Part shown: positions 11,512 through 42,809 of the stretch, piece by piece
Numbering within the stretch: position 1 is the first letter of the stretch
Layout of the letters: every line of letters starts with the position of its first letter
Assembly (NCBI RefSeq): GCF_022095675.1
Contig: NZ_JAHYSG010000007.1
Span: 1-64,000 of the forward strand
DNA length: 64,000 bases
Reading direction: 5' to 3'
DNA from: Dactylosporangium sp. AC04546
GTDB lineage: Bacteria; Actinomycetota; Actinomycetes; Mycobacteriales; Micromonosporaceae
Made by a program: the position numbers and the translations under genes
Notes under the pieces: model-generated
Told to the model about the DNA's origin: nothing
Databases searched by the model: none
The model's input: only the letters and a program-made list of their open reading frames with translations

Positions 11512-12122
11512 GACACCGGCTCGCCCTCTTGGCTGCGTTCGTGGTGGCCGCGCTCGGCACCGTCGTACCGCTGGCCGCATCGCCCGCCTGGGCCGCGCCC
11601 ACGCTCAGCGTCAGCAAGACCACCGGCCTGGCCGACGGCACGTCGGTGACGGTCAACGGCAGCGGCTTCACCCCGAACCTCAAGCAGATCGCCGTCGGTC
11701 AGTGCATCGAGAACATGAAGGGCCCGACCGACTGCAACCTCGCCGGCGGCGCGCAGTTCGTCAACGCCGACGCCTCCGGCAAGCTGCCCACGGTCACGAT
11801 CAAGCTGGCCAAGAAGTTCGGGACCTTCGACTGCACCCAGCGTACGTGCGTCGTCGCCGCACAGATCCTGCCGTCGGGGAACAACGGCGGCGAGGTCGAG
11901 AAGAACAAGGTCGCCGTCAAGCTGTCCTTCGGCGAGGCGGCCGCGCCCACGACCTCGGCCGCCGCGGCCGCCACGGCGGAGGCGACGGCGCTGCCGAAGA
12001 CCGGCCCCGGCGACGAGCCGGTGGTGGTCGTCCTCGCCGGCACCGCCCTGCTGTTCCTGGGCGTCGGCCTGCTCGTCGTCCTCCCGGCCCGCCGCCGCCG
12101 TGCCCGGGCGGTGGCCGGATGA
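11508..12122 (+). CDS. Neocarzinostatin-like cell-wall protein with LPKTG sorting signal
   Basis: A 204-aa exported protein whose ATG at 11508 overlaps the transporter stop; GAGGAG precedes it. A signal peptide (about 1-27, ending PAWA) is followed by one neocarzinostatin-type domain (about 28-140) with LADGTSVTVNGSGFTP and two Cys pairs (QCIENMKGPTDC and DCTQRTC). After an Ala/Thr linker, LPKTG at 162-166, a hydrophobic helix and RRRR form a complete sortase signal. It is therefore probably anchored covalently to peptidoglycan. No sortase gene is in the window, so a sortase elsewhere must act. Antitumour-chromoprotein apoproteins share the fold, but no enediyne genes are nearby. Confidence 0.75.
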   Translation: MRHRLALLAAFVVAALGTVVPLAASPAWAAPTLSVSKTTGLADGTSVTVNGSGFTPNLKQIAVGQCIENMKGPTDCNLAGGAQFVNADASGKLPTVTIKLAKKFGTFDCTQRTCVVAAQILPSGNNGGEVEKNKVAVKLSFGEAAAPTTSAAAAATAEATALPKTGPGDEPVVVVLAGTALLFLGVGLLVVLPARRRRARAVAG

Positions 12123-16449: not shown

Positions 16450-17094
16450 TCAGGGGACGGGGACGCGGGCCGGGGCGTCCCGGGCGACGCGGGCAGCGGT
16501 CCAGGCCAGCGTCGACAGCAGGAACACCTCGCCCAGGTTGCCCAGCCACGGGGTCGAGACGCCGCCCGCGGCCGCGGCGAACATCGCCACCGCGCCCACG
16601 AACAACCAGGGCCACGACGCCCGGCGCCAGATCGACGCGCCCGCCACCACCAGGACGAGCATCGTCACCACGGCCGGGATCGGGGGGCCCGCCGCGGCGG
16701 CGTCGACGTAGCGGAGGGCGCCCGCGTACGTGCGGGGCTCCAGCTCCGCCGCCACCACCTCGGTCCACGTGCCCAGCGCGATGGCCACGATGGTCAGGAC
16801 GGTCGCGGCCTGCTTGGCCCGGGTGCGGGACGCCCAGCGGACGCCGTAGCGGTCGGCCAGCTGTACCGCCACCGGGATCAGCAGCGGCGTGCACAGCGCG
16901 TGGGCGGCGAAGCGGCCCGTGTTCAGCGACCGCAGCAGTGTGCCCTCGCCCAGGGGCGTGCCCAGGGCGATGACCACGTTGTCGTAGACCACGGCCAGGC
17001 AGACCAGGGCCAGCAGCCAGGAGCGGGCCCGGGCCGCGAACACCGAGGCCAGCAGGAGCGCTGCGGCGAAGGCACCGTACAGCGCGGTGACCAT
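16450..17094 (-). CDS. Polytopic membrane protein, function unknown
   Basis: A 214-aa protein with about six predicted helices, for example LYGAFAAALLLASVFAA, LLALVCLAVVYDNVVIALG, AATVLTIVAIALGTW, AVVTMLVLVVAGASIW and WLFVGAVAMFAAAAG. The ATG at 17094 overlaps the stop of the upstream gene, so it is the last gene of the minus-strand operon that begins at 23819. I recognise no family. Being cotranscribed with tetrapyrrole-type enzymes, it might take part in uptake, efflux or membrane anchoring. It ends 36 bp from the convergent glycosyltransferase gene, without a clear terminator hairpin between them. Confidence 0.65.
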   Translation of the reverse strand: MVTALYGAFAAALLLASVFAARARSWLLALVCLAVVYDNVVIALGTPLGEGTLLRSLNTGRFAAHALCTPLLIPVAVQLADRYGVRWASRTRAKQAATVLTIVAIALGTWTEVVAAELEPRTYAGALRYVDAAAAGPPIPAVVTMLVLVVAGASIWRRASWPWLFVGAVAMFAAAAGGVSTPWLGNLGEVFLLSTLAWTAARVARDAPARVPVP

Positions 17095-17837
17095 CAGTGC
17101 TCCCGGAGCAGGCGGCCGGCGCCGTACACCTTGTCCTCGATGCCGTTCGAGCGCAGGGCCATCCACCACGTCGCGGCGTTGATGGCGATCACCGGCTTGC
17201 CCAGCCAGCGCTCGGCCTCGTCGGCCAGGCGGACCATCGACAGGTTCGTTCCACATTGGACCAGGGCGTCGACGTCCGGGCCGTTGACCTCGAGCAGGGC
17301 GTTGCGCAGCTCGTCCTCGGTGACGTGGGCGATCGAGACGGCGGTGGGGCACTTCAGGCCCTTGATCTTCACCACCTCGAAGCCGATCTCGGAGAAGAAG
17401 CGGACCACGTTCTCGTCGCCGACCGGCTGGTACGGGGTGACGACGCCGATGCGCTTGGCGCCGAACAGGTTCAGGGCCCGCTCGCACGCCTCGGCGCCGG
17501 TCGCCACCGACAGGCCGGTGATGGCGTTGATCTGGGCGACGAACTGCCGGTTGCCCTCGACGCCGCCCCAGAACGTCTCGGCCGACATGCCCATCACCAT
17601 GGCGTCGGGCTCGCAGGTGAGCACCCGCTCGCAGGCGAAGCCGATCTCGTCGCGGATCTGGGTGAGCAGGCCCTCGAAGTTCTCGTCGCTGGACAGGTCC
17701 TGGTTGCGGATGTGGATGCGGGAGAAGTGGGAGGTCACGCCGGGCACCGCGAGGGCGGCGAAGTCCGGCTCGACGATGGTGTTGGTGGACGGCGCGATCA
17801 CGCCGAACTTGCGCCGCCAGCCGAGCGCATCAGTCAT
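17094..17837 (-). CDS. Maleate isomerase / arylmalonate decarboxylase-like Asp/Glu racemase superfamily protein
   Basis: A 247-aa cytoplasmic enzyme with superfamily landmarks: FGVIAPSTNTIVEPDF near the N-terminus, GAKRIGVVTPYQ in the middle, and the second-lobe cysteine in LVQCGTNLSM. Maleate isomerases use two cysteines. The first-lobe position here reads VMGMSAE and has no Cys, which is the arylmalonate decarboxylase arrangement. It may thus decarboxylate or isomerise a substituted malonate or maleate rather than maleate itself. ATGA overlaps join it to both neighbours. The operon context suggests a substrate derived from ring cleavage. The superfamily is sure; the reaction is open. Confidence 0.75.
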   Translation of the reverse strand: MTDALGWRRKFGVIAPSTNTIVEPDFAALAVPGVTSHFSRIHIRNQDLSSDENFEGLLTQIRDEIGFACERVLTCEPDAMVMGMSAETFWGGVEGNRQFVAQINAITGLSVATGAEACERALNLFGAKRIGVVTPYQPVGDENVVRFFSEIGFEVVKIKGLKCPTAVSIAHVTEDELRNALLEVNGPDVDALVQCGTNLSMVRLADEAERWLGKPVIAINAATWWMALRSNGIEDKVYGAGRLLREH

Positions 17838-18463
17838 GGTGATTCCTTCGACGAAGTGGCGCGGACCGTCAGCCAGGCCGCGGCCAGCAGCGCCAGCTGC
17901 GCGGCCGTGTTCGTCGACTGCTCGATCCACTGGACGGTGAGGGTCTCGTGCTCGGGGTGGTTGCGCAGCGGCACCAGCGCCGTCACGAGGGCGAAGCTGA
18001 CGGCGAACAGCGCGATCGCGCCCCAGGCCCGCCGCCGGCCGGCGAGGATCGCGCCGAGCACGCTGATCGCGGTCACGCCGGTGGTGGCCAGGAAGAACAT
18101 CGGCCGCAGGCTGCCCACGGCCACGCAGCCGGCGATGGCCGCGACGTAGGCGAGGGCGAACGGCCACCAGGGCACCGGGCGGCCGCCGCGCAGGGCGCCC
18201 GCCAGGGTCCACACGAGCAGCGCGGCGCCGGCCGCCATGAGCGGGAACAGCGACGCCTCCAGCCACGGCAGGTCGGTGTCGAAGCCGGCGACGAGCAGCT
18301 TCCACACCGACTTCGCGACGCCGCCGGCGCCGATGAGGACCGCGCCGGCCCGGCCCCACGCGACGTGCGGGCCGAGGCCGGCGAGCAGCCAGAAGCCGGC
18401 CAGGGCGAGGAACGTCGGGACGAAGTCCTCGAGGGCCAGCGAGAGGGGGTAGTCGTGCGTCAC
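17834..18463 (-). CDS. Polytopic membrane protein, function unknown
   Basis: A 209-aa protein with about six hydrophobic segments (FLALAGFWLLAGLGP, PLMAAGAALLVWTLAGAL, FALAYVAAIAGCVAVG, GVTAISVLGAILAG, AIALFAVSFALVTALVP, LALLAAAWLTV). The GTG at 18463 lies in a GTGA overlap with the SDR stop, and its own stop overlaps the next ATG. It has no ATPase partner and no family I recognise. It could be a transporter component or a membrane anchor for the Rieske or reductase proteins. Size and layout are similar to the 16450 protein, but I see no clear sequence match. Confidence 0.65.
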   Translation of the reverse strand: MTHDYPLSLALEDFVPTFLALAGFWLLAGLGPHVAWGRAGAVLIGAGGVAKSVWKLLVAGFDTDLPWLEASLFPLMAAGAALLVWTLAGALRGGRPVPWWPFALAYVAAIAGCVAVGSLRPMFFLATTGVTAISVLGAILAGRRRAWGAIALFAVSFALVTALVPLRNHPEHETLTVQWIEQSTNTAAQLALLAAAWLTVRATSSKESP

Positions 18464-19212
18464 GCGAAGAGGTCCCGCTTGCGGAACGGCGCCGTGGCGA
18501 ACCGGCCGAACGCCTTGGGGGTGGTGAGCCAGGCGACCCGGCCGCCGTTGGGCACGCCGGCGAGGACCCGCTCGGCCAGCCACGGCGTGACCGTCTCGAC
18601 CTTGTCGGCCAGGATGTTGAAGATCTTCTTGACCCGGGCCAGCTCGTCCGGCGAGTAGTCGTGCGAGAGCAGGTCGGTGACGACCATGCCGGGGGAGAGG
18701 TGCGCGACGGTCACCGGGGAGTCCTTGCCGAGCTCCTTGGCGAGCGCGTCGGTGAGGTACGTGACGGCCCGCTTCGTCATGCCGTAGCCGGCGAGGCCGG
18801 GCGCCTTCTGGTTGCCCGAGCCGAAGCCCTCCATGTTCCACAGCGCGCCGTGGCCCTGGGCGCGCATCGCGCCGAGGACGACGGCGCATGCGTGGGCGAG
18901 GCCGCGGAGGTTGACGTCGATGACCGTGTCGAGCTGGTCCGGCGGCAGGTCCCACAGCGGCTTCCGGGCGGTGGTGACGCCGGCGTTGTTGATCCAGATG
19001 TCGACCTTCCCGAAGGCGTTCACCGCCTCGTCCCACACCCGGCGGACGTCGTCGCGATCGGTGACGTCGGCCTGGACGGCCAGCAGCCGCTCCTGCGACA
19101 CCGCGGCGGCCGACCGTCCGCAGTAGACGACGGCGCAGCCGCGGTCGGTGAACGCGCGCACCAGGCCGGCCCCGATGCCGCGGGTACCGCCCGTGACCAC
19201 GACGACGGTCAC
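18460..19212 (-). CDS. Short-chain dehydrogenase resembling chlorophyll b reductase (NOL/NYC1 type)
   Basis: A 250-aa NAD(P)-dependent reductase. The cofactor motif TGGTRGIG is at residues 7-14, NNAG is present, and the catalytic YGMTK has Tyr143 and Lys147. It shares unusual segments with what I recall of plant NOL: DIWINNAG, a NMEGFGSG block where NOL has NIDGAGSD, YGMTKRAV against YGATKRSV, HLSPGMVVTDLL against NLSPGMVTTDLL, and a C-terminal extension with a KAF-containing block before the end. NOL reduces the 7-formyl group of chlorophyll b. The neighbours resemble chlorophyllase, PaO and RCCR, so a tetrapyrrole carbonyl is a reasonable substrate. GTG 19212 is chosen for its GTGA overlap; GTG at 19224 is possible. 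Confidence 0.75.
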   Translation of the reverse strand: MTVVVVTGGTRGIGAGLVRAFTDRGCAVVYCGRSAAAVSQERLLAVQADVTDRDDVRRVWDEAVNAFGKVDIWINNAGVTTARKPLWDLPPDQLDTVIDVNLRGLAHACAVVLGAMRAQGHGALWNMEGFGSGNQKAPGLAGYGMTKRAVTYLTDALAKELGKDSPVTVAHLSPGMVVTDLLSHDYSPDELARVKKIFNILADKVETVTPWLAERVLAGVPNGGRVAWLTTPKAFGRFATAPFRKRDLFA

Positions 19213-20138
19213 GACGGGCTCCACCGCAGCACGCCGTGGACGACCCCGGAGAGCGTCATGCCGGCGTGGACCCGGTAGGCGACGGCGAGCGTCGAGCCCG
19301 CGTTCATGCCGGGCGTCGCGTCGATCATGAACTCGCGGCCGGTCAGCCGTACGGCGGACCCGGCGACGTGCAGCGAGGCGTAGTTGGCGCGACCGTAGGC
19401 GACGGCGTTGCCCCACGCGCCCGGCCCCTCGTAGAAGGAGCGGAACCCGTCGCGGCGCCAGTCCACCTCATACGAAAGCTCCGTCGCACCCGACCAGGTG
19501 ACCGTCAGGCGGGTGCGGAGCAGGTCCACGGGCGTGAGGGCGACCGAGACGTCGACCGGGCCGACCAGCTTCTGGTCGGCGCCCCAATACGAGCACTCGC
19601 CGCGGTAGGCACCCGCCTGCTTGGTCGGCAGGATGAACGGCACCGGGCCGTTGCGGGTCTCCGCCGCCAGGTGCTCGGCCAGCGCTTCCGAGGCGAGGCC
19701 CCGGTGGTACACGCCGTTGAAGCAGCCGACCACCGACGGCCCCTGGTACAGCATCGACGAGTACACCTGCGTGTCGCCGTCGCCGATGACCTGGTTCCAG
19801 GTGTTGAGCCCGACCTGCCAGCCCGGCCCGTAGTAGGCGGCGTCGACGAACGAGCCGTAGGGCTGCCCGGAGCCGTGGAAGTCGGGCCCGGTGTAGATCC
19901 GGTCCGCGTCCGAGTCGACGACGCCGAACGCGAACGGCGCCCCGAGCCGGAACCGGCCGGCGAGCGGGCCGCCGCCGTCGAGGCCGCCGTCCATGTAGTA
20001 CGTCGTGACGCCGTCCTCGAACACCGACGAGCGCCGGATGTCCTCGTAGCCGCGCCAGGTGCCGTCGGCGTCGAAGAGGCTCGGCCGGCCCACCCACTCG
20101 CCCGCGATGCGCTGCTGCCAGCCGGAGGGCTCGCTCAT
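19209..20138 (-). CDS. Unrecognised 309-aa protein, beta-rich, in the tetrapyrrole-type operon
   Basis: Cytoplasmic, without signal peptide or membrane helix. The start GEWVGRPSLFDADGTWRGYE and many short alternating strands rich in Trp, Tyr and Gly suggest a beta-barrel of the calycin/lipocalin sort, like small proteins that hold bilins or fatty acids in other organisms; this is a weak resemblance only. Possible two-fold symmetry: WRGYEDIRRS with YYMDGG early, and YRGECSYWG with SYEVDWRRDG later. ATG 20138 overlaps the upstream RCCR-like stop (ATGA) and its stop overlaps the SDR start (GTGA), so it is translated together with them. It might bind or deliver a chromophore. Confidence 0.6.
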   Translation of the reverse strand: MSEPSGWQQRIAGEWVGRPSLFDADGTWRGYEDIRRSSVFEDGVTTYYMDGGLDGGGPLAGRFRLGAPFAFGVVDSDADRIYTGPDFHGSGQPYGSFVDAAYYGPGWQVGLNTWNQVIGDGDTQVYSSMLYQGPSVVGCFNGVYHRGLASEALAEHLAAETRNGPVPFILPTKQAGAYRGECSYWGADQKLVGPVDVSVALTPVDLLRTRLTVTWSGATELSYEVDWRRDGFRSFYEGPGAWGNAVAYGRANYASLHVAGSAVRLTGREFMIDATPGMNAGSTLAVAYRVHAGMTLSGVVHGVLRWSPS

Positions 20139-20866
20139 GCGACGGGCTCGCCGATGAGCAGCGCGCGGATCTCGTCGCTCGCGTCCTGGCCGAGCAGCCT
20201 GGAGACCTGCAGCCACACCGGGTCGACGTCGGGGCTGAACAGGTTGCCCCGCACGGCCGCGTCGCGCGCCGCGAGGTCGGTGTCGGCCAGCGACTCCAGG
20301 ACCTCCGGCGAGAAGCCTTCCAGGAGACCGAGCCAGTGGTCCAGATAGGACGTGACGATCGGGGTCATCCCCGTGAACGCCTCCTCGGACGCCCGGTGCA
20401 CGAGCATCCACGGCGACATGAGCGCGTGCTGCCGGGGGCTGATGTGCGCCCGGGTGAGCCCGTCGCGCTCCGACGCCGACTCATAGAGCGGGGTGAGCGG
20501 GTGGTAGGCCGCGTCCATGTAGGACAGGTGCGGCGAGAGCTCGGCCCGGGGGATGAGGTCCAGGTGGTAGGCGTAGTACTCGCCGCCGTACACCGAGTCG
20601 AGGGTGAAGTGCGGTACCGCCGAATCCGCCCGGCTGAAGGCGAACACCATGTGGCTGTCCAGGTGGATCATCGGCACGACCAGGCTGACGGTGACCACGC
20701 GTTCGACCACGCCGTCGCCCTGGAACACCCGCACCACGCCGACCGGGTCGGGTGTCATGGGCGAGCGCAGGGTCCGGTGCGGCGCGCCCACTTCCTTGAG
20801 GGGCACGCGGTCGAGCAGCTGCTGCAGGGTGTGCTCCGCCAGCGCGGCGGGCAGCGACGGGCTCAC
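20135..20866 (-). CDS. RCCR / ferredoxin-dependent bilin reductase superfamily-like protein (second copy)
   Basis: A 243-aa protein. The central part has the bilin-reductase layout: a strand with VVPMIHLDSHMVFAF, then VPHFTLDSVYGGEYYAYHLDLIPRAEL, corresponding to the PHFGxDxx...xxxDLxPR pattern of the FDBR/RCCR fold. A helical half follows, ending in AARDAAVRGNLFS and a leucine-rich tail, which parallels the end of the 23019 protein. Family members reduce bilins or red chlorophyll catabolite with electrons from ferredoxin. The GTG at 20866 has GGAGAG upstream and overlaps the Rieske stop by GTGA. It is more diverged than the 23019 copy and could be a partner subunit or act on a different bond. 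No ferredoxin gene is in the window. Confidence 0.6.
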   Translation of the reverse strand: MSPSLPAALAEHTLQQLLDRVPLKEVGAPHRTLRSPMTPDPVGVVRVFQGDGVVERVVTVSLVVPMIHLDSHMVFAFSRADSAVPHFTLDSVYGGEYYAYHLDLIPRAELSPHLSYMDAAYHPLTPLYESASERDGLTRAHISPRQHALMSPWMLVHRASEEAFTGMTPIVTSYLDHWLGLLEGFSPEVLESLADTDLAARDAAVRGNLFSPDVDPVWLQVSRLLGQDASDEIRALLIGEPVA

Positions 20867-22065
20867 GACGACTCTCCTTCTTCTTCGGCGCGCTCCGCGC
20901 CGATGCGCTCGGCCTCGGCCACCGTGGGGTGCAGGCCCTTCGCCTTGTGCACCCAGGCGCGGGCCAGCTCGGGGTTCTCGCGACGGGCGGGCGACGGGAT
21001 GACGGTCGCCTCGCGGCGCGGCACGTCGCCCATGATCCGGTCCTCCTCGCCGAGCAGCCAGCCCTGCTCCGACAGCTCCTGCCGGCGGCGGCGGTAGTGC
21101 ACGGCGATGAGGTCGCTCTTGACGTGCAGTTCCGCGCCCAGGTCGAAGGGCAGCAGCTCGGGCCGGACCCGGTCGACGACCGGCGCGTCCTGGCCGAAGA
21201 TGCGGTGCACGCGCTGGATCGTGTTCTTGTCGGCCCAGTTGCCGGTGAAGAAGTCGCGCAGCGCGACCCACTTGACCAGCGTGGTCGTCTCGTCGATCGG
21301 GATGTTGGTGTCGTAGATGATCAGGTTGCCCATCGGCAGCCGGACGTGCAGCTTGATCATGTTCGGCAGCATCCAGCCGGCGGTGGTCGCCACCGGCGGG
21401 CGCTCCTTGAGGTCCTTGCCCCTGCGCCCGATCCGGGCCCACAGGCCCTTCGGCGCCGGCGGGTGCAGCCGCACCGTGGCGAAGGCCGACCACTCGTCGG
21501 GGATCTCGAGCTCGTACTCCTCGACGTCGGGGCGCTCAGGGTTGCCGAACGCGCCGGCGTGGACGAACGGCGTGTGCGCGATGTCGCAGCCGTTCTCAAG
21601 GATCCGCTCGTAGTTGGACTTCCAGAGGTACTCGCCGGTGACCGCCTTGAACGAGCCGCCGTTCGCGACCAGGTCGTCGAACTCGGGCCACACCGGGATG
21701 GGCGGGCGCTCCGCCTCCGGGAGGTCGCCGAGGAAGACCCAGACGAAGCCGTACCGCTCGGTCACCGGGTACGAGTCGACGCGGGCCTTCTTCGGGATGC
21801 CCCGGCCGGGCTGGTTCGCCGGGATCTTCGAGCAGGCGCCGTCGGGCTGGTACTCCCAGCCGTGGTACGGGCAGACGAGGGTGTCGCCGTTCGTCCAGCC
21901 GCCGGACAGCGCGGCGCCGCGGTGCACGCACAGGTCGGAGAGTGCGACCGGGCGGCCCTTCGGCGTGCGGTACAGGGCGAGCTCCTGGCCGAGGCAGGTG
22001 ACCCGCACCGGCTTGGTGGTGACGCGCTCGGAGAACTCGACCGCGTACCAGAAGTTCTTCAACAT
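20863..22065 (-). CDS. Rieske non-heme iron oxygenase, alpha subunit, pheophorbide a oxygenase-like type
   Basis: A 400-aa soluble oxygenase. The Rieske [2Fe-2S] site is C46-V-H48 with C65-P-Y-H68. The mononuclear iron site is NGCDIAHTPFVH, with Asp161, His164 and His169. Length and the single-subunit form fit class IA oxygenases such as PaO, VanA and carbazole or steroid oxygenases. Plant PaO opens the chlorin ring of pheophorbide a. The C-terminal CxxC typical of plant PaO/TIC55 is absent. ATG 22065 follows TAGGAGCACGCC. It lies between a chlorophyllase-like hydrolase and an RCCR-like gene. The oxygenase call is certain, the substrate is inferred. No reductase component is encoded next to it. 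Confidence 0.85.
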   Translation of the reverse strand: MLKNFWYAVEFSERVTTKPVRVTCLGQELALYRTPKGRPVALSDLCVHRGAALSGGWTNGDTLVCPYHGWEYQPDGACSKIPANQPGRGIPKKARVDSYPVTERYGFVWVFLGDLPEAERPPIPVWPEFDDLVANGGSFKAVTGEYLWKSNYERILENGCDIAHTPFVHAGAFGNPERPDVEEYELEIPDEWSAFATVRLHPPAPKGLWARIGRRGKDLKERPPVATTAGWMLPNMIKLHVRLPMGNLIIYDTNIPIDETTTLVKWVALRDFFTGNWADKNTIQRVHRIFGQDAPVVDRVRPELLPFDLGAELHVKSDLIAVHYRRRRQELSEQGWLLGEEDRIMGDVPRREATVIPSPARRENPELARAWVHKAKGLHPTVAEAERIGAERAEEEGESS

Positions 22066-22074
22066 GGCGTGCTC

Positions 22075-23022
22075 CTAGCGGCGCCGGATCTTGAGCAGGG
22101 ACTCGTCGGCTTCCGCGGCGGGTTCGCCGCGCAGGTGGGTGCCGAGGAAGGTGGCGAGCAGGCCGGCGATCGCGGCCCGGGCACTGGCTCCGTCCACGGT
22201 GGACGGACGGTCGAGGAACGCGCGGGCCGACGTCGGGTCGACCGGGTCCGCGATACTGAAGTGGTTGCCGCCCTGCAGCCAGGCGAGCACGTGCTCGCCG
22301 CCACGGTCCTGCAGCGCCTCGTCGAACGTGCGGCTGACCGGGTCGTGGTCGCCGGTTGCCTGGTACCGGTCCGCGGAGTCGGCGATGACGCCGTCCTCGG
22401 TGCCGGCCAGCAGCAGCACCGGCGACTCGACGTGCGCCGGCGCGATCGTGCCGGCGGGCCAGCCGAGCATGGTGGAGACCATGGTGTGCGCGCCGTAGGT
22501 GGCAACCGCCCGGACACCGCTGAAGAACCGGCCGGACTGCAGCGCGACGGTACCGCCGGCCGAGTGGCCGACCAGCGCAAGGCGCGTGGTGTCCAGCGCG
22601 CCGTCGAGCAGCCCCGACAACGCGGAGATGATCGGCGCGATCGCCTGGCACGTCGGGCCCTGGCCGTAGGTGTCGGGTTTGGCGAGCGCCAGGTCGACGC
22701 CCGGGGTCAGGCCGACCTGGCCGGCGAACAGCGGGCCGACCCAGTCGTAGGTCACCGCGGCGAAGCCCCGCGACGCCAGGTCGGTCGCCAGCCAGCGGTA
22801 CGCGTCCTGGCCGACGTTGATGCCGCTCAGGATCAGCACGACCGGGTACGGCGCGTTCGCCGGGTCGGCGCGGAAGTTGCCCGACAGGCGCTCCTCGTCC
22901 GACCCGGTGACCAGCGCGGGGTAGTGCACCTTCAGCACGGCCGTGTCGAACGGCTCCGGCGCGTCCGGGATGCGCACCGCGTGCCAGAGGGAGCGCACGG
23001 TGGCGGTTCTGGGCGTTGTCAC
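22075..23022 (-). CDS. Chlorophyllase / PETase-like alpha/beta hydrolase
   Basis: A 315-aa serine hydrolase. The oxyanion-side strand PYPVVLILSGINVGQDAY (about 58-75) is followed by LASRGFAAVTYDW, the arrangement of the chlorophyllase / dienelactone-hydrolase-like group. The nucleophile motif GHSAGG is at 152-157 (Ser154), with later Asp (AGTEDG) and His (GGNHFSI) candidates. Plant chlorophyllases have GHSRGG at this place and cut the phytyl ester of chlorophyll. The GTG at 23022 lies in a GTGA overlap with the RCCR-like gene; the Rieske gene follows after 9 bp. Other esters or polyesters are possible substrates, since the same group holds cutinases. It has no signal peptide, so it works inside the cell. 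Confidence 0.75.
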   Translation of the reverse strand: MTTPRTATVRSLWHAVRIPDAPEPFDTAVLKVHYPALVTGSDEERLSGNFRADPANAPYPVVLILSGINVGQDAYRWLATDLASRGFAAVTYDWVGPLFAGQVGLTPGVDLALAKPDTYGQGPTCQAIAPIISALSGLLDGALDTTRLALVGHSAGGTVALQSGRFFSGVRAVATYGAHTMVSTMLGWPAGTIAPAHVESPVLLLAGTEDGVIADSADRYQATGDHDPVSRTFDEALQDRGGEHVLAWLQGGNHFSIADPVDPTSARAFLDRPSTVDGASARAAIAGLLATFLGTHLRGEPAAEADESLLKIRRR

Positions 23023-23819
23023 GGGCGGGGGAGCTGGCGGTCGGCGCCCCACAGCGCGCCGACGAGCCGGTCGGTGGTCTCCTGCCCGAAGTACCGCACG
23101 CCCATCACGTTCGCCGGGTCGCGGTCGGCGATGTTGCGCCGGATCGCGAGGTCGCGCTGGCGCAGGGCCTCGCGCTCCTCGTCCGGCACCGGCTCGGCCT
23201 CGTCGATCCAGCCGAGCCAGCGGTCGACCTGCGCGTGCAGGATGCCGCTGACGACCTCGATGTTGCGGGCCTTGCGCTCGAACGAGTACACGTACGCGTT
23301 CGGCGACAGCGACGCGCGGATGAACGGGGCCCGGCTGGTGAACCAGACGAACTCCGGGTCGTCGCGGTGGGCCAGCCAGGCGTCGTTCGTCGGCGCGTAG
23401 TAGCGGTCGAAGTACTCCCCGTCGACCATGATCTCGGTGCGGGGGATGTAGTCGGTGTAGAACCAGCCGCCGGGCCAGCACAGCAGCGCGATGCCGAGGT
23501 GCGGCACGCGGACCTGGGGGCCGAGCCAGCAGGTGAGGTGCAGGTTGACGAAGCTCTGCGCCGGGTTGCCGAGCCACGAGTGCACCATCCAGTCGACCTC
23601 GGGGCCGCTGTAGGCGGCGACGCGGCCGCCCGGGCCCTCCGGGTATGTCCCGTATGCCTCGAGGTCCTCGGTCGACGGGTCGCGCGTGGTGGCGAACCGG
23701 GCGTCGATCTTGGCCTTCAGGTCGATGAGGAGCTGCTGGAACTGTGCGAATGTGTCGTGGACGTCGATCACCGGCGACGCGTCGAGCATCTCCTCGACGT
23801 GCTGGACCGTCTCTGCCAT
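23019..23819 (-). CDS. Red chlorophyll catabolite reductase (RCCR)-like protein
   Basis: A 266-aa protein and the clearest RCCR resemblance. Reading against RCCR from memory, the order agrees over the C-terminal two thirds: a strand with VPHLGIALLCWPG (RCCR APNFVVELIQSS), YTDYIPRTEIMVDGEYFDRYY (RCCR LDLPHRKDLVLNPDYLKEYY), FIRASLSPNAY (RCCR FVRSAFSPTAS), a helix ending VDRWLGWID, then REALRQRDLAIRRNIADRD (RCCR MELERRDKSFRRKSIEDD) and VRYFGQETTDRLVGAL (RCCR PRMFGEEVSSRVVHAI). RCCR reduces a linear chlorophyll catabolite with ferredoxin electrons. This is the first gene of the operon, downstream of an operator and a TTGACA box; ATG 23819 has GGGAGAG. Confidence 0.7.
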   Translation of the reverse strand: MAETVQHVEEMLDASPVIDVHDTFAQFQQLLIDLKAKIDARFATTRDPSTEDLEAYGTYPEGPGGRVAAYSGPEVDWMVHSWLGNPAQSFVNLHLTCWLGPQVRVPHLGIALLCWPGGWFYTDYIPRTEIMVDGEYFDRYYAPTNDAWLAHRDDPEFVWFTSRAPFIRASLSPNAYVYSFERKARNIEVVSGILHAQVDRWLGWIDEAEPVPDEEREALRQRDLAIRRNIADRDPANVMGVRYFGQETTDRLVGALWGADRQLPRP

Positions 23820-25570: not shown

Positions 25571-25846
25571 GTGCTCACCCACGTCGTCGTCATGAAGTTC
25601 ACGGACCCCGCGGACGCTCCGGAAGCCAAGGCCAGACTGGCAGCCCTGCTGGGCGTGGTGCCGCAGATCCGCACAATCCAGGTGGAGCTGGACACGCTGC
25701 GCACAGAGGTCTCGTACGACCTGCTGGTCATCACGACGCACGACAACGCGGACGGCCTGCGCGGCTACCAGCAGCACGAGGCCCACCTGGAACTGGCGGG
25801 CTGGCTGCGCCCCCGCCTGGCAACGCGCGCGGTGGTCGACTACTGA
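25571..25846 (+). CDS. Dabb-domain (stress-responsive alpha/beta barrel) protein
   Basis: A 91-aa protein covering one Dabb domain: LTHVVVMKFTDPAD at the start, a central helix LAALLGVVPQIRTIQV, YDLLVITTHDNADGL and a terminal H-x-L-x4-WLRP strand. Dabb proteins are small dimeric barrels; some act as enzymes on polyketide or aromatic rings, others have no known role. The GTG at 25571 lies 88 bp from the divergent nitrilase gene, and the two share operator 2. It is the only plus-strand gene in this part of the cluster. It is short but has good coding character and family match. Confidence 0.75.
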   Translation: MLTHVVVMKFTDPADAPEAKARLAALLGVVPQIRTIQVELDTLRTEVSYDLLVITTHDNADGLRGYQQHEAHLELAGWLRPRLATRAVVDY

Positions 25847-26272: not shown

Positions 26273-27709
26273 TCAGGACGGGTAGGCGCCTGGCGGGAGG
26301 CCGGCGCCGCCCGGGCGGAACGGGCCCGGGGCGTGGATCACGCAGGGCTGGACGTACTCGGCCAGGCCCTCCTCGGCGTACTCGCGGCCCCAGCCCGAGC
26401 GTTTCACGCCGCCGAACGGGGCGCGCAGCGACATGCCCGTGCGGTTGTGGGTGTTGACGAAGACGAAGCCCGCCTCCAGCTCGCGGGCGAAGGCGAACGC
26501 CCGCTCCTCGTCGGCGCTCCAGACCGATGCTCCCAGGCCCAGGTCGTCGTCGTTGGCCCAGGACAGGACCTCGGCCTCGGTGTCGTACGGGACCAGGGGG
26601 ACCAGTGGGGCGAACTGCTCCTCGCGCAGCAGGGCCGCGTCCGGGGCGGGGGAGACGGCCAGGAACGGTGCGACGAAGTGGCCGGCCGTGAGGTCGGTGT
26701 CCGGGGCCGTGCTGCCCAGGGGGACCAGGTCGGCGGCCCGGGCCGTCGCCAGCAGGTCAGCCGCCCGGGACCGGGCCTCGGCTGAGATCATCGGGCCCAC
26801 CGTGACGCCCGGGGCCAGCGGGTCGCCCAGCACGGCCACCCGCCGCGCCGCCGCCTCGTACGCGGAGACGAACGGGGCCAGCAGCGCGCGGGGGACGTAC
26901 AGGCGCTTCGCCGCCATGCAGACCTGGCCGCTCGTGGCCAGGCTCGCCAGTACCAGACGATCCATCGCGGCGTCGTCCGGCACGACGTCGTCGAGGAACA
27001 CCGCCGGGTCGTTGCCGCCCAGTTCCATCACCGTCGGGATCAGCTGGTCGGCCGCCGCGGTGGCGATCGCGCGGCCGGCCGTCTCGCCGCCCGTGAACGC
27101 CACCTTGCGGACCAGGCGGTGGGTGGTCAGGGCGGCGACCAGCGGGGCGTGGCCGTGCAGGGCGCGCAGAACGCCGTCCGGCAGGTACTCGCGCATGATG
27201 CGGACGACGCGGTCGATCGTCAGCGGGCCGAGTGGTGACGGCTTCACGATGATGGTGTTGCCGGCCGCCAGCGCGGGGGCGATCTTCAGCATGGCCAGGA
27301 TCACCGGAGCGTTCCACGGGGTGACCGCCACGACCACGCCGTACGGCTTGTACCGCACGACCAGGCGGCCGTCGGCGTCGTCCACGACGCGGTCGGGGAG
27401 CGGGGCGTGGGCGAGGACCCAGCGCAGGTACTTCACCGCGAAGCCGATCTCGCCGCGGCAGTCCGCCAGGGGCTTGCCGATCTCGCGGGCCATCAGCGTG
27501 GCCAGCTCGTCCAGCTCCGACTCGACGGCGTCGGCCGCGCGGGACAGGGCGGCCAGGCGTACGTCGGGCGGCGTCGAGGACCAGGCGCGATACGCACGGT
27601 GCGCGTCGCGGACCGCGTCGTCCACCCGGTCCGGGATGTTGCGGACCACGGCGTCGACGTGGCCGACGATCTCCGTGCAGCGGGCGGGGTTCGCGCGGGC
27701 GATGGTCAT
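26273..27709 (-). CDS. NAD(P)-dependent aldehyde dehydrogenase
   Basis: A 478-aa enzyme that oxidises an aldehyde to the acid. Catalytic glutamate is in MELGGNDP and the nucleophilic Cys in SGQVCMAAKR; PWNAPV and AFTGGETAGR are cofactor-binding landmarks, and PFGGVKRSGWGRE closes the fold. Length matches the succinate-semialdehyde / betaine aldehyde dehydrogenase branch. ATG 27709 overlaps the stop of the FAD-monooxygenase gene. It is the last gene of the operon starting at 33520. It could act on a fatty or phytyl-type aldehyde or on an aldehyde acid from ring cleavage; the sequence does not decide. Confidence 0.85.
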   Translation of the reverse strand: MTIARANPARCTEIVGHVDAVVRNIPDRVDDAVRDAHRAYRAWSSTPPDVRLAALSRAADAVESELDELATLMAREIGKPLADCRGEIGFAVKYLRWVLAHAPLPDRVVDDADGRLVVRYKPYGVVVAVTPWNAPVILAMLKIAPALAAGNTIIVKPSPLGPLTIDRVVRIMREYLPDGVLRALHGHAPLVAALTTHRLVRKVAFTGGETAGRAIATAAADQLIPTVMELGGNDPAVFLDDVVPDDAAMDRLVLASLATSGQVCMAAKRLYVPRALLAPFVSAYEAAARRVAVLGDPLAPGVTVGPMISAEARSRAADLLATARAADLVPLGSTAPDTDLTAGHFVAPFLAVSPAPDAALLREEQFAPLVPLVPYDTEAEVLSWANDDDLGLGASVWSADEERAFAFARELEAGFVFVNTHNRTGMSLRAPFGGVKRSGWGREYAEEGLAEYVQPCVIHAPGPFRPGGAGLPPGAYPS

Positions 27710-28848
27710 GCCGCGGTCTCCCGCAGCGCGGCGATCATCGACGACTTCAGCAGGTACGTGCGGGCCGCGACCGGGTCCGCGGCGAGGGCGCGCAGCTCGT
27801 CGGCGTACGCCGAGGCGCCGCCCGAGCGCAGCTTCTCCCAGTTGCGGTGCGTGCTCGCCTGGACGTGGTCGCGGGCCACGATCCGCCGCGCGTCGGCGAC
27901 CGCCGAGAGCCGCGCGTCGTCGCCGTCAGCGACCGCCCGGGCGAGCAGGACCGCGTCGTGGATGCCGGAGTTCATGCCCATGCCGCCGAGGGGGTTGTTG
28001 ATGTGCGCGGCGTCCCCGGCGAGCAGCACGCGGCCCTGCCGGAAGGAGGCGGCGATGCGCTGGTGGACGCGGTACAGCGTGGTGTGCGCGACCCGCCACG
28101 GACGCCCAGGGTCGGCCACGCCCAGCAGCCGCGGGGGGAGCCGTTCCAGCTCGGCGGCGTCGGGGGTGTCCGGCGGCGTCGGCAGCAGGACCCGCCAGTG
28201 GTCCGGCGTCTGGAGCAGCACCAGCCACTCGGCCGGGTCGAACAGGTAGTTCACGGCGGCGATCCCGGGCAGCAGCGCCGTCAGGTCCTCGGCGGTCGAG
28301 CCGACCAGGAACCGCTCGGGGTACGTGATGCCCTCGAAGGAGGTGCCGTGCAGCGTGCGGCGCACGGCCGAGTTGGCGCCGTCGGCGCCGATGAGCCAGT
28401 CGCCGCGGAACTCCTCGCCCGCCTCGGTGCGCACGGTGACGCCGGTCGCGTCCTGGGTGACGCCGCCGAGCGCCACCGCCTGGCCGAACCGGACCGTGCC
28501 CTCGGGCAGGTGCGGCAGGGCGATGCGGGTGAACTTGCTCTGTTCGAGCTGGAGGCGGAAGGGGTACCGCGTGTCGCCCGCCAGCAGCCCGAGGTCCAGC
28601 TCGGCGATGATGCCGCCGCCGCGCTCGCGGTACTGGAACGTGGGGGACACGAGTCCCTGGGCGAGCATCGGCTCGATGACGCCCAGGTCGGCCAGCATCT
28701 CCAGCGACGGCGGGTGGAAGGTCGAGGCGCGCGACTCGGTGGCCAGGTCCGCCCCGGCCTCCAGCACGGTCACGGGCACGCCGGCCCGGCGCAGCGTGAG
28801 CGCGGCGGTCAGCCCGACCGGGCCGGCCCCGGCGACGATGACGGTCAT
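27706..28848 (-). CDS. FAD-dependent monooxygenase (PHBH / aromatic hydroxylase family)
   Basis: A 380-aa class A flavoprotein monooxygenase. The FAD motif VIVAGAGPVGLTAAL is at residues 3-17, the DG motif appears as GADGANSAVRR, and the GD motif as LLAGDAAHINNPLGGMGMN. It lacks the C-terminal thioredoxin-like domain of phenol hydroxylases, so its size is near PHBH. It would hydroxylate an aromatic or pyrrolic ring using NAD(P)H and oxygen. Starts and stops overlap those of both neighbours (ATGA). In this operon it lies between a lyase and an aldehyde dehydrogenase. Substrate unknown. Confidence 0.85.
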   Translation of the reverse strand: MTVIVAGAGPVGLTAALTLRRAGVPVTVLEAGADLATESRASTFHPPSLEMLADLGVIEPMLAQGLVSPTFQYRERGGGIIAELDLGLLAGDTRYPFRLQLEQSKFTRIALPHLPEGTVRFGQAVALGGVTQDATGVTVRTEAGEEFRGDWLIGADGANSAVRRTLHGTSFEGITYPERFLVGSTAEDLTALLPGIAAVNYLFDPAEWLVLLQTPDHWRVLLPTPPDTPDAAELERLPPRLLGVADPGRPWRVAHTTLYRVHQRIAASFRQGRVLLAGDAAHINNPLGGMGMNSGIHDAVLLARAVADGDDARLSAVADARRIVARDHVQASTHRNWEKLRSGGASAYADELRALAADPVAARTYLLKSSMIAALRETAA

Positions 28849-29696
28849 GACGGCCCTCCGTAGCGGGAGTCGAGTGCCAGGGCGTCCGGCTGGCCGACGA
28901 GGGCGGTGAACGCCTGCCACGACAGTCGCGGCACCGCCCCGGCGTGGCCGGCGTGAGCGATGGCGGCGTAGGCCGCCCGGGCCGCTTCGAGCGCGGCGAG
29001 CAGCGGGGCGACCGGGTGCAGCACCAGGCGTACCCCCAGATCGGACAGCTCCTCGTCCGGCAGGCCGTCGCCGGTCGGCCCGCCCGCCTCCGAGCGGTTG
29101 ACCACGAGCGGGACGCCGGGCAGCGCGTCGTGCACGGCGGCGAGGCCGTCGCGGTCGCTGACGCCCTCGACGAAGACCGCGTCGGCCCCGGCCGCCACGT
29201 AGCGGGCGGAGCGTTCGATCGCGTCGGACAGGCCGGTGACCGAGTAGGCGTCGGTCCGGGCGACGAGCACCAGGCCGGTGCCGGCCTCGGCGACCGCCTG
29301 GATCTTCCCCGCGGCGGTGGCGGCGTCGACGACCTCCTTGCCGGCGAGGTGGCCGCAGCGCTTCGGGCTGACCTGGTCCTCGATGTGCAGGCCGGCGACC
29401 CCGGCGGCAGCGTACCGGCGGGCCGTCCACACGGCGTGGATCGCGGTGCCGTAGCCGGTGTCGGCGTCGGCGAGCAGCGGCACGCCGTCGAGGGCGGGGG
29501 CGATCGTGGCGGCGCGGTCGGCGATGTGGGTGCCGTGGACGTAGCCGAGGTCGGGCAGGCCCAGGGCGAGCGCGGCGACCGCGGCCCCGGACAGGTGCGC
29601 GGCCCGGAACCCGGCCGCGCGGGCGAGGGCCGCGGTCACCGGGTCGTAGACGCCCGCGAGGTGGGTGACGCCGGGACCGGCGAGGAGCGACCTCAC
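28845..29696 (-). CDS. Isocitrate lyase / PEP mutase superfamily enzyme
   Basis: A 283-aa TIM-barrel lyase. It has LADADTGYG (metal-binding aspartates) and KRCGH, the loop with the catalytic Cys of lyases such as methylisocitrate and 2,3-dimethylmalate lyase; IEDQV lies in between. The KRCGH loop argues for a C-C lyase rather than PEP mutase. Such an enzyme cuts a substituted malate or isocitrate into pyruvate or glyoxylate plus an acid, and would fit the end of a pathway through alkylmaleates. GTG 29696 is in a GTGA overlap with the upstream aldehyde dehydrogenase. Confidence 0.8.
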   Translation of the reverse strand: MRSLLAGPGVTHLAGVYDPVTAALARAAGFRAAHLSGAAVAALALGLPDLGYVHGTHIADRAATIAPALDGVPLLADADTGYGTAIHAVWTARRYAAAGVAGLHIEDQVSPKRCGHLAGKEVVDAATAAGKIQAVAEAGTGLVLVARTDAYSVTGLSDAIERSARYVAAGADAVFVEGVSDRDGLAAVHDALPGVPLVVNRSEAGGPTGDGLPDEELSDLGVRLVLHPVAPLLAALEAARAAYAAIAHAGHAGAVPRLSWQAFTALVGQPDALALDSRYGGPS

Positions 29697-31006
29697 CGGC
29701 CCTCCACGCCGGTGACGCGCGGGTTGGTGAAGAAGCGCAGCGTCTCCGCCGTACCCTCCTCGCCCAGGCCGGACACGCCCCACGCGGGCCGCGGCGTGAA
29801 CAGGTGCAGGCTCATCACCGACGACCCGTTCACCTTCACCTCGCCGGCCCGGACCCGCCGGGCGACCGCGAGCGCGGCGTCCTCGTCGGCGCCGAACACG
29901 TACCCCTCCAGGCCGTACTCGGTGTCGTTGGCGAGGGCCACCGCCTCCTCGACGGTGTCGTAGCCGTGGACGGTCGCGACCGGCCCGAAGATCTCGTGCC
30001 GGGCCGCTTCCGGGTCGGCCCCGGTGACCAGTGCGGGCGCGAAGTAGTCGCCCTCGGCGGGGACCGTGGTCCAGCGGTGCGCGGTGCCGCCGAGCGCGTC
30101 GAGCTGGTGGGCGACGAGCGAGCGGTGCCCGGCGTGGATGAGTGGGCCGAGGTCGGTGGCCGGGTCGGCCGGGTCGCCGACCCGCAACGCGGCCAGGCGC
30201 TCGCCGATCGCCGGCAGCAGCTCGGGCACCATCGAGTGGGGCGCGACGAGCCGGCCCAGGGCCCGGCACCACTGACCGTTGAGCGTGGTGAGCAGCTCGA
30301 CCGCGGCCCGGGCGGCGTCCTGCACCGAAGCGTCGGGCAGGACCACGAGCGGGTTGTTGCCGCCGAGCTCCAGCTGGGCCGGCTTGAGCTGGGCCGCGCA
30401 CTGGGCGGCGACGGCCCGGCCGCCGGGGACGCCGCCGGTGAACGACACCGCGCGGATGCGGGGGTCGCCGACGATCGCGGCGCCGACCGCCGGGCCGCCG
30501 TGCAGGATCTGCAGCACGCCCGGCGGCAGCAGCCCGGCGATCGTGCGCACGAGCAGGTCGGTGCCGTCGGCGGCGTGCTCGCTCGGCTTGACGACGGCCG
30601 GGCAGCCCGCGGCGAGGGCGTTGGCCGCCTTGTGCGCGGCCATCGGGGCGGGCGCGTTCCACGGGACCAGGCAGGCGGCCGGGCCCCACGGCAGCAGCTC
30701 GACGGTGACCTCGCGGCCGTCGTCGCGGGTGACCGTGCGGGTCAGCCAGCCCTCGCGCAGCTGGGCCGCGGCGAGCCGGAACGAGCCGGTGACGATGAAC
30801 CCGAGGGGCGTGGTCTGCCGGATCGGCACGCCGGTCGTGGCGCTCTCCAGCGCGACGAGCTCGCCGACGACCGGTTCCAGGGCGTCGGCGCAGGCGTCGA
30901 GCCGGTCGGCCCGCTCGTCCGGCGGCACGGCCGCCCACGCGGGCGCGGCCCTGTCGGCCGCGGCGAGCACCGCCTCGACCACGTCCGGCGCGCTGTCCGG
31001 CCGCAC
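29693..31006 (-). CDS. Aldehyde dehydrogenase family protein, second copy
   Basis: A 437-aa enzyme, somewhat shorter than the usual 470-500. The GTG start at 31006 skips part of the usual N-terminal strands. The catalytic glutamate (QLELGGNNP) and Cys (NGQWCRALGR) are present, as are PWNAPAP and SFTGGVPGGR. The C-terminal stretch SLHLFTPRPAWGVSGLGEEG differs from the usual PFGGxKxSG loop, which may change the aldehyde pocket. It begins one base after the acyl-CoA dehydrogenase stop, clearly in the same operon. Substrate unknown; it is only distantly similar to the 26273 enzyme. Confidence 0.8.
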   Translation of the reverse strand: MRPDSAPDVVEAVLAAADRAAPAWAAVPPDERADRLDACADALEPVVGELVALESATTGVPIRQTTPLGFIVTGSFRLAAAQLREGWLTRTVTRDDGREVTVELLPWGPAACLVPWNAPAPMAAHKAANALAAGCPAVVKPSEHAADGTDLLVRTIAGLLPPGVLQILHGGPAVGAAIVGDPRIRAVSFTGGVPGGRAVAAQCAAQLKPAQLELGGNNPLVVLPDASVQDAARAAVELLTTLNGQWCRALGRLVAPHSMVPELLPAIGERLAALRVGDPADPATDLGPLIHAGHRSLVAHQLDALGGTAHRWTTVPAEGDYFAPALVTGADPEAARHEIFGPVATVHGYDTVEEAVALANDTEYGLEGYVFGADEDAALAVARRVRAGEVKVNGSSVMSLHLFTPRPAWGVSGLGEEGTAETLRFFTNPRVTGVEGR

Positions 31007-42423: not shown

Positions 42424-42809
42424 ACGTGCCCGAGGACGAGACCACCCGGCAGTGGTGGGACGAGACCCGCGCCCGGCGCCTCACCGTCCAGCGCTGCGGG
42501 TCGTGCGGGCACCTCCAGCACTACCCGCGCCCGGTGTGCCTGTCGTGCGGCGGGCAGGCGCTGTCGCTGGTGCCCGTCGCCGGCACGGGTGTCGTGGAGA
42601 CGTTCACCGTCGTGCGCCGCACCGCCTACGAGGACCTGCCCGCGCCCTACGTCGTGGCCGTCGTGGCGCTCACCGAGGGGCCCCGGCTGCTGACCAACGT
42701 CACGCCGCTCGACGCCGTCGCGATCGGCCGGGCGGTCCGCGTCGACTGGCGGCCGCTGGACGACGGCCGCAACCTGCCCGTGTTCGTCATTGTCGCCATG
42801 GAGGAGTGA
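42420..42809 (+). CDS. DUF35 zinc-ribbon / OB-fold protein, partner of the thiolase-like protein
   Basis: A 129-aa protein. A rubredoxin-like zinc ribbon (CGSCGHLQHYPRPVCLSCG, residues about 25-43) precedes an OB-fold (VVETFTVVRRTAYEDLPAPYVVAVVAL). DUF35 proteins bind thiolase-fold partners and complete their active site; in steroid degradation the DUF35 part of ChsH2 is required for Ltp2 aldolase. Here it is a separate gene next to its presumed partner. GTG 42420 is in a GTGA overlap. Confidence 0.85.
   Translation: MNVPEDETTRQWWDETRARRLTVQRCGSCGHLQHYPRPVCLSCGGQALSLVPVAGTGVVETFTVVRRTAYEDLPAPYVVAVVALTEGPRLLTNVTPLDAVAIGRAVRVDWRPLDDGRNLPVFVIVAMEE

Follow-up and report, generated by a model that had tools for sequence, protein, structure and literature searches.

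A conserved actinobacterial gene island with RCCR-family proteins, predicted to import and catabolise tetrapyrrole pigments

Why does an actinomycete carry, in a single operon, proteins that resemble the enzymes of plant chlorophyll breakdown? The question is raised by the first 64,000 nucleotides of contig NZ_JAHYSG010000007.1 of Dactylosporangium sp. AC04546 (assembly GCF_022095675.1, 13.0 Mb, contamination estimate 11.5%), which is the whole stretch analysed here and is called the window below. The initial annotation had placed six genes in its middle and had read five of them as successive steps of the plant pheophorbide a oxygenase (PaO)/phyllobilin pathway, two of them encoding proteins similar to red chlorophyll catabolite reductase (RCCR), named RCCR1 and RCCR2 here. 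The coordinates confirm the six genes at that place and on the minus strand. Our analysis suggests, with moderate confidence, that they belong to the core of a conserved actinobacterial island whose predicted role is the uptake and breakdown of tetrapyrrole pigments, chlorophyll products of linear (bilin) type being the likeliest. The case for tetrapyrrole chemistry in an operon of an actinomycete gains strength, because both RCCR-like proteins fall in the superfamily of RCCR and the ferredoxin-dependent bilin reductases (FDBRs) and because the 309-residue protein encoded among them has a predicted fold with tetrapyrrole-binding relatives. However, stepwise equivalence with the plant pathway is unsupported.

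RCCR1 is a member of the RCCR family, as had been proposed. It matches PF06405 at 50.1 bits, against a curated cut-off of 24.9 (E 2.9e-13), and its profile finds plant RCCR (PDB 3agb) at E 1.6e-17 and the bilin reductase GtPEBB (6qwq) at E 2.7e-9. In plant RCCR we take Glu154 and Asp291 to be the catalytic acid pair, where the number 154 comes from chain position 111 by adding 43, an offset inferred from the chain length. Asp234 of RCCR1 is aligned with Asp291 and is kept in 22/22 sequences of its family alignment (A1). In a joint alignment of both bacterial types, Asp234 of RCCR1 and Asp216 of RCCR2 share one column, which holds Asp in 19 of the 21 sequences printed (the other two have an Asn and a gap at a truncated end). 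Ala111 of RCCR1 and Asp91 of RCCR2 share the other column, with Asp in all ten RCCR2-type sequences and Ala (7) or Val (4) in the 11 of RCCR1 type. Judged from these columns, RCCR1 keeps only one acid, a result against a plant-type RCCR mechanism. Some actinomycete homologues are already named RCC reductase in databases. A plasmid-borne relative of known function was dropped as a candidate, as none of 72,556 plasmid records has an RCCR1 match at E 1e-5. A distant RCCR1-like paralogue (identity about 25-35%), in which Val replaces Ala111, occurs in four loci (L153, L157, L161 and L158); in the small genomes of family f19, described below, the distant paralogue lies away from the cluster.

RCCR2 remains below the cut-off of the FDBR family PF05996 (18.4 bits against 31), and a sequence-only search of the PDB with its profile gave no meaningful match. 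Its kinship is drawn from profile-profile comparison and from the predicted structure, both of which place RCCR2 in the RCCR/FDBR superfamily. Among 21 RCCR2-type proteins (alignment A2), 5 match PF05996 and 13 match PF06405 at E<=1, and Asp91 and Asp216 (numbered on a 244-residue reading) are present in 21/21. The FDBRs have a catalytic Asp pair which we take to be of the PebS Asp105/Asp206 type. As the alignments indicate, RCCR2 retains both acids that a bilin reductase should have, since Asp occupies both the first column (10/10) and the second. The earlier description of RCCR2 as RCCR- or bilin-reductase-like thus stands for the superfamily but not for the FDBR family itself. The fold of the two RCCR-like proteins had been named in advance as a point on which the proposal could fail, and both lie inside the superfamily. 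Relatives of RCCR2 with 52-54% identity (P0166 and P0192) come from Anaerolineales/Anaerolineae.

The 309-residue protein is predicted to form a double beta-barrel of the DUF3598/nitrobindin/CpeS-like calycin fold, and tetrapyrrole-binding relatives are among the matches of the predicted structure. On this model it would serve as a pigment carrier. Databases list the families of RCCR2 and of this protein mostly as hypothetical.

The grouping of these genes recurs in other genomes. Scanning species genomes with the RCCR1 profile yielded 155 relatives, and our counts cover the best 80 of the 155 confirmed loci, so that more distant relatives are under-represented. RCCR1, the Rieske oxygenase, RCCR2 and the barrel protein are all encoded in 77/80 loci and are colinear in 76/80, a co-occurrence of PF06405-type and Rieske genes that had been proposed for checking earlier. 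All six core genes are found in 75/80 loci, the nitrilase-family gene in 78/80 and a gene similar to arylmalonate decarboxylase (AMDase) in 77/80. Because it recurs in the same order across loci, the grouping is more than chance. The exceptions are a locus with RCCR1 and none of the other core genes (L035), one without the hydrolase, RCCR2, barrel, short-chain dehydrogenase/reductase (SDR) and AMDase-like genes (L072), one without the barrel gene (L055), two without the hydrolase gene (L029, L030), a short contig without the nitrilase and AMDase-like genes (L053) and one with the Rieske and barrel genes inverted (L043). In two distant lineages (L165, L166) the four genes are together and the hydrolase and SDR were not detected. 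The closest named relative of RCCR1 is that of Dactylosporangium sucinum (94% identity).

With the own genome counted in each case, PF06405 matches are present in 6/61 genomes of relatives, 11/296 drawn from the class and 3/396 drawn from the phylum. Six of the 11 class matches belong to family f19, whose genomes measure 1.0-1.7 Mb (completeness 60-100%) and carry one to four PF06405 matches in 6/6 cases. One of them (G110), rated 100% complete, has two RCCR1-like genes in cluster contigs and one distant copy elsewhere. Its fetched stretches hold four RCCR2-like, two Rieske, two barrel and two AMDase-like genes, and further encode a nitrilase, a FAD monooxygenase, a PEP-mutase, a CoA-transferase-like protein, an isochorismatase-family hydrolase, an HMGL-type lyase and a Liv-type importer. 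Several copies in so small a genome suggest that the substrate is an important one.

Do the remaining core genes follow the plant pathway? The Rieske protein, described earlier as having the PaO cofactor pattern, carries PF00355 and PF19112 (VanA_C); the PaO domain PF08417 has no match at E<=1 in the protein and none in the own genome (control matched in 2/14 genomes, over the cut-off in 1). Its closest solved structures are SxtDIOX, SxtT and NdmA, and DdmC also matches; C46, H48, C65, H68 and D161, H164, H169, D308, presumably the metal ligands, are conserved. The label of chlorophyllase for the hydrolase is withdrawn, since its score against PF07224 is 20.5 bits, below the cut-off of 26, with a best stretch of 35 residues; instead, the protein is over the cut-off for the dienelactone hydrolase family. 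It also matches PET hydrolases (E 2e-5) and has a GHSAGG motif, with H153 and S154 conserved. The SDR is indeed a classical one (PF00106, E 1.9e-37; Y143/K147 conserved), but its matches are generic and nothing in them is specific to NOL/NYC1, in a comparison made without a reference NOL sequence. The Mg-dechelatase SGR (PF12638) was found neither in the own genome (0/1) nor in others carrying RCCR1-type genes (0/32), a search in which no positive control matched. Equivalence with the plant pathway is unsupported because of the missing PaO domain, the chlorophyllase score, the generic SDR, the SGR result and the Ala of RCCR1 at the Glu154 position. Plant orthology at every step was rejected: neither the Rieske protein nor the hydrolase reaches the specific family, while the generic matches of the SDR decide neither way.

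The operon extends beyond the six genes, and the initial annotation had covered only the middle of the island (Table 1). Four of the five junctions between the six genes are 4-base overlaps, in line with the translational coupling proposed earlier, but hydrolase and Rieske genes are separated by a 9-base gap. The coupling continues past the SDR into a 209-residue membrane protein and the AMDase-like gene, and a second membrane protein comes next, while the nitrilase-family gene lies 61 bases upstream of RCCR1.

Table 1. Features of the island and its surroundings in the window (start codons are predicted)
Feature	Position	Strand	Remarks
Solute-binding-like lipoprotein and branched-chain-amino-acid-type ABC importer (LivF; fused LivH-LivM-LivG)	6646..11511	+	
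Neocarzinostatin-fold surface protein, LPKTG-type C-terminal anchor	11508..12122	+	PF00960 E 2.4e-21
212-214-aa membrane-type protein, weakly conserved	16450..17094	-	no Pfam match over cut-off
AMDase/EutA/maleate-isomerase superfamily protein	17094..17837	-	PF17645 E 1.7e-21
209-aa membrane-type protein	17834..18463	-	no Pfam match
Classical SDR	18460..19212	-	
309-aa protein, predicted double calycin beta-barrel	19209..20138	-	
RCCR2, bilin-reductase superfamily	20135..20866	-	243 aa; 4-base overlap with Rieske stop
Rieske oxygenase, VanA_C type	20863..22065	-	400 aa
Alpha/beta serine hydrolase	22075..23022	-	start codon uncertain
RCCR1, PF06405 family	23019..23819	-	266 aa
Nitrilase-superfamily amidohydrolase, 533 aa	23881..25482	-	PF00795 E 1.5e-39
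Dabb-domain protein, antisense	25571..25846	+	PF07876 E 7.6e-15
Aldehyde dehydrogenase 1	26273..27709	-	PF00171; 4-base overlap with monooxygenase stop
Class A FAD monooxygenase, PnpA/HspB-like	27706..28848	-	PF01494
PEP mutase/isocitrate lyase family C-C lyase	28845..29696	-	PF13714 E 1e-41
Aldehyde dehydrogenase 2	29693..31006	-	PF00171
Acyl-CoA-dehydrogenase-fold flavoenzyme, probably flavin monooxygenase	31008..32267	-	
Flavin reductase + HMGL-like lyase fusion	32279..33511	-	PF01613 E 6.5e-45, PF00682 E 5.9e-8
IclR-family regulator, divergent	33726..34460	+	PF01614 E 2e-43
230-aa membrane protein	34617..35309	-	no Pfam match over cut-off
CoA module (ten members)	35387..44823	+	Pfam scans
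Acyl-CoA synthetase, DUF4437/cupin, cyclase PF04199, second MmgE/PrpD	44909..52138	+	plus-strand genes only

The enzymes around the core are of types found in catabolism. The FAD monooxygenase is closest to PnpA (6ain, E 3.9e-57) and HspB (7da9, E 4.7e-50) among solved structures; these two enzymes introduce a hydroxyl group at a substituted carbon of a hydroxy-aromatic ring and free the substituent. For the acyl-CoA-dehydrogenase-fold enzyme the closest are the FAD-dependent oxidoreductases 3m9v/4kcf, then DnmZ and nitrososynthase, with DszC lower down among many acyl-CoA dehydrogenases. The flavin reductase and the HMGL-like lyase are joined in one chain, an odd fusion; in family f19 the HMGL-like lyase is a separate gene (L152:9277-10185). 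In the nitrilase-family protein E40, K112 and C145 are conserved; PF00795 covers residues 2-261 only, and the second half, which also has conserved residues, may be a degenerate second copy. The first part of the CoA module consists of a MaoC protein that matches the mesaconyl-CoA hydratase model PF19315, a luciferase-like monooxygenase, a CoA-transferase III, MmgE/PrpD and a RidA-like protein, and the remainder of a second MaoC, a thiolase, a zinc-ribbon/OB protein, an acyl-CoA dehydrogenase and an HpcH/HpaI (CitE) lyase. A reading of the 230-residue membrane protein as a HemJ/CopD-like heme protein was dropped, having no Pfam support.

The AMDase-like protein belongs to the AMDase superfamily (PF17645, 77.4 bits against 25.9; Cys195 conserved). 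It matches the structure 2xed at E 6.1e-15, with Cys at the AMDase position only, and it falls below the NCBIfam equivalogs for EutA (85.8 against 318 bits) and arylmalonate decarboxylase (66.5 against 225). The catalytic cysteines of AMDase and maleate isomerase are numbered here as we presume them to be; on that basis the gene was rejected as a maleate isomerase, as the first isomerase Cys is aligned to Met and Cys195 pairs with the cysteine of AMDase rather than with the second one of the isomerase. Paralogues of 50-56% identity lie near the cluster in six loci (L063, L103, L106, L120, L124, L127), with Val in place of Cys195 and likewise Met at the first isomerase position. It is possible that the protein decarboxylates a ring-E beta-keto acid. 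According to a passage of PMC5861670, carboxylated nonfluorescent chlorophyll catabolites (carboxy-NCCs) lose CO2 remarkably slowly, and a catalyst of decarboxylation would therefore be useful.

Putative uptake genes lie on the far side of the core. The importer is identified by PF02653, PF00005 and PF12399, while its solute-binding-like lipoprotein was assigned by eye and has no Pfam match. The fused permease is also present in L154 (47%) and L158 (57%). Secreted proteins are encoded in the window, and one of them has the neocarzinostatin fold over the cut-off together with an LPKTG anchor; this fold is known to bind chromophores. Elsewhere in the window, 53977-63999 encodes type VII secretion (ESX-type) proteins by Pfam (EccB, a subtilase, EccD and an FtsK/SpoIIIE-family, EccC-like ATPase), and 14191-16413 encodes a polysaccharide deacetylase fused to a family 2 glycosyltransferase. 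The window contains no tRNA and no RNA family over its gathering score.

How far does the island reach in other genomes? The flanks were surveyed in 20 of the 80 loci, chosen for genus spread and all having the core, up to about 28 kb per side where the contig allowed. A count of 20/20 for the core genes is thus no independent one. Counts at any identity (at least 35% in one mapping, no limit in another) include paralogues and were therefore repeated at >=50% identity, the threshold that holds below unless another is given. The FAD monooxygenase, both aldehyde dehydrogenases, the acyl-CoA-dehydrogenase-fold enzyme, the IclR regulator and the 230-residue membrane protein are near the core in 20/20. 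The Dabb protein follows with 16/20 (18/20 at any identity), the second MmgE/PrpD with 14/20 (15/20), the cyclase with 12/20 and the flavin reductase with 11/20 (15/20). Thiolase, second MaoC and a third MaoC-type gene reach 8/20 each; luciferase-like, RidA, acyl-CoA synthetase and cupin genes 7/20 each; the PEP-mutase lyase 6/20; the first MaoC, importer permease and solute-binding protein 5/20 each; and the neocarzinostatin-fold protein 5/20 (15/20 at any identity). At >=35%, the 209-residue membrane protein is near the cluster in 15/20 and the 212-214-residue one in 5/20. The gene at 14191-16413, directly outside the operon, served as a control and lies near the cluster in 1/20. In three or four of the Micromonosporaceae examined, core and CoA module are divergent; the module is downstream of the core in Nocardia transvalensis, Streptosporangium canum and two Nonomuraea; in Actinomadura CNU-125 its first three genes directly follow the AMDase-like gene.

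From the chemistry of these families we infer the following route. LPKTG-anchored neocarzinostatin-fold proteins and the Liv-type importer would capture and import the pigment, which the Rieske oxygenase would oxidise and the double-barrel protein would carry. RCCR1 and RCCR2 may add electrons and protons, probably from ferredoxin, to the methine bridges. The PnpA/HspB-like flavoenzyme might then hydroxylate the terminal lactam ring, in its hydroxypyrrole form, at the bridge carbon and so detach a maleimide. Release of a dialkylmaleimide and an aldehyde is proposed because the terminal bilin lactam is the tautomer of a hydroxypyrrole with the bridge at the corresponding carbon. The aldehyde would pass to the coupled aldehyde dehydrogenase, and the pair of flavin reductase and acyl-CoA-dehydrogenase-fold enzyme could make further cuts. 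Ring opening of the maleimides by amidohydrolases of nitrilase and cyclase type might give branched diacids, and these would be converted to central metabolites by CoA-transferase, MaoC, MmgE/PrpD and the CitE/PEP-mutase (and HMGL) lyases. Catabolism for growth is favoured over plant-style detoxification, because monooxygenases and aldehyde dehydrogenases accompany the island, joined in some genomes by CoA-linked lyases, an importer and surface proteins. A chlorophyll-type substrate is preferred because the closest characterised family of RCCR1 is RCCR and because heme oxygenase (PF01126) was not found in part of the genomes searched and, where found, is located elsewhere. Intact chlorophyll seems less likely than Mg-free or already linear products, given that SGR was not found in the 33 genomes (no positive control).

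Several observations weigh against import and catabolism of tetrapyrroles. No member of the island has a known substrate. RCCR1 has Ala111 where plant RCCR has Glu154 and so lacks the plant acid pair, the Rieske oxygenase is of the demethylase/hydroxylase-like VanA_C type, and the fold of RCCR2 is common to two chloroplast Ycf2-FtsHi structures. Fatty-acid-binding proteins and NanoLuc also match the fold of the 309-residue protein, and barrel folds bind many ligands. The AMDase-like protein has neither of the two maleate isomerase cysteines. SGR was found in none of the 33 genomes (again, no positive control), and no ferredoxin gene is among the window genes scanned, a gap noticed from the start. 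Importers of this type have broad specificity, and the fused permease lies close to the cluster in just 5/20; the counts for importer and neocarzinostatin fold refer to the neighbourhood of the cluster, without a background frequency. CoA-transferase (7/20), MmgE (7/20) and CitE (11/20) are similarly patchy, and D. sucinum has no CoA-module gene in the fetched stretches, although its core, importer, surface and cyclase genes are present. The recount at 50% weakens the CoA and uptake modules, but not the core.

Could the island then act on something else? It might degrade a non-tetrapyrrole aromatic compound or N-heterocycle, the RCCR/FDBR-fold and barrel proteins having been recruited for a new substrate. 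The relationship of the Rieske protein to SxtDIOX, SxtT and NdmA would agree with this, as would that of the FAD monooxygenase to PnpA and HspB, which act in the degradation of nitrophenol and nicotine, respectively. AMDase-like and nitrilase-like genes, both present here, are common in such pathways, and RCCR1 has no equivalent of Glu154. However, of the four proteins that make up the best-conserved core, all but the Rieske oxygenase have tetrapyrrole-linked folds (two RCCR/FDBR, one DUF3598/nitrobindin/CpeS-like), and RCCR2 keeps both bilin-reductase Asp positions, so we consider recruitment for such a substrate rather unlikely, though a serious candidate. A heme-derived bilin (biliverdin or bilirubin) released by heme oxygenase, in place of a chlorophyll product, is a further alternative. 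RCCR2 is similar to reductases acting on biliverdin-type bilins, and heme oxygenase is encoded elsewhere in the own genome and in 15/20 named relatives. But in genomes that have it, the gene is remote from RCCR1 or on a different contig; searches with PF01126 did not find it in 6/6 genomes of family f19, one rated 100% complete (control: 3/14 genomes match), nor in 5/20 named cluster-bearing genomes, a search that covered no other heme-opening enzyme. Heme oxygenase was hence rejected as the source enzyme, being not found by PF01126 in 11/27 cluster-bearing genomes searched. Heme bilins could still be imported, and we regard a heme-bilin substrate as unlikely. Phycobilin-derived bilins are a possible substrate as well.

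That the operon corresponds directly to the plant PaO/phyllobilin pathway, each step having its orthologue, is suggested by the RCCR family membership and by the operon that Rieske and RCCR-family genes share as neighbours. The family results on PaO, chlorophyllase, SDR and SGR (the last without positive control) speak against it, and several modules of the island have, to our knowledge, no plant counterpart, which makes this very improbable. The hosts are actinomycetes, many of which are rich in specialised-metabolite clusters, and synthesis of a modified bilin or another pigment might be considered. Yet C-C lyases, CoA-transferase, importer and IclR regulator fit catabolism, the order is conserved across many genera and even genomes of 1.0-1.7 Mb have the island, while no polyketide or peptide assembly-line protein is among the window genes scanned. 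Such a biosynthetic role can hardly be credited. Import and catabolism of linear chlorophyll products remains our preferred explanation. Only tentatively do we extend it to the proposal of a pathway, the first in bacteria, by which tetrapyrroles derived from chlorophyll are imported, opened, reduced and mineralised to support growth; it would have an RCCR1-Rieske-RCCR2-calycin core in actinobacteria of large and tiny genomes, and plant RCCR would be related to bacterial catabolic enzymes.

Few pigments are turned over on Earth in larger amounts than chlorophyll, whose breakdown in plants ends at colourless phyllobilins. In the openly licensed PMC papers searched we found no described gene set for microbial completion of this process and no published description of an actinobacterial RCCR/Rieske cluster, and the statement that no bacterial operon of this kind had been described has held up in that literature. 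The conservation of the island in dozens of named actinomycetes makes the proposal directly testable, and if it is correct, a function is suggested for the RCCR2 and double-barrel protein families.

Among known systems, the FDBRs (HY2, GtPEBB, PebA, PebS, PcyA) have the fold and the Asp pair in common with RCCR2, but RCCR2 is below the PF05996 cut-off and the window genes scanned include no ferredoxin. As with PaO of plants and cyanobacteria, the island has a Rieske oxygenase beside RCCR-family genes, but one with VanA_C and without the PaO domain; bacterial PaO-like sequences generally have no PaO motif, according to a passage of PMC2716323. The Nostoc RCCR homologues Npun_R3277 and Npun_R3279 lie side by side (passage of PMC2716323), and an RCCR-related gene is reported from Ca. 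Schekmanbacteria (passage of PMC10151467). In the passages at hand from these two papers no catabolic island, Rieske or barrel partner is described for them, and neither 'actino' nor 'rieske' occurs in PMC10151467. SGR homologues of Anaerolineae show that a chlorophyll-breakdown family can occur in non-photosynthetic bacteria (PMC8531759 and PMC11006732). The same class has the RCCR2 relatives P0166 and P0192, whereas SGR was detected in 0/33 genomes with RCCR1-type genes (no positive control). HspB and PnpA are the closest solved relatives of the island FAD monooxygenase, and we know of no pathway of either that contains RCCR-family proteins. Finally, plant RCCR (AtRCCR; PDB 2zxk, 2zxl, 3aga-3agc) shares its Pfam family and a sequence match with RCCR1 and its fold with RCCR2, and both proteins retain the residue that we equate with Asp291. 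At Glu154 of the plant enzyme, however, RCCR1 has Ala (Val in distant copies) and RCCR2 has Asp, and the bacterial genes, unlike the plant one, are part of a larger island with catabolic-type genes, so that RCCR and the bilin reductases would, if our reading is true, gain a bacterial catabolic setting.

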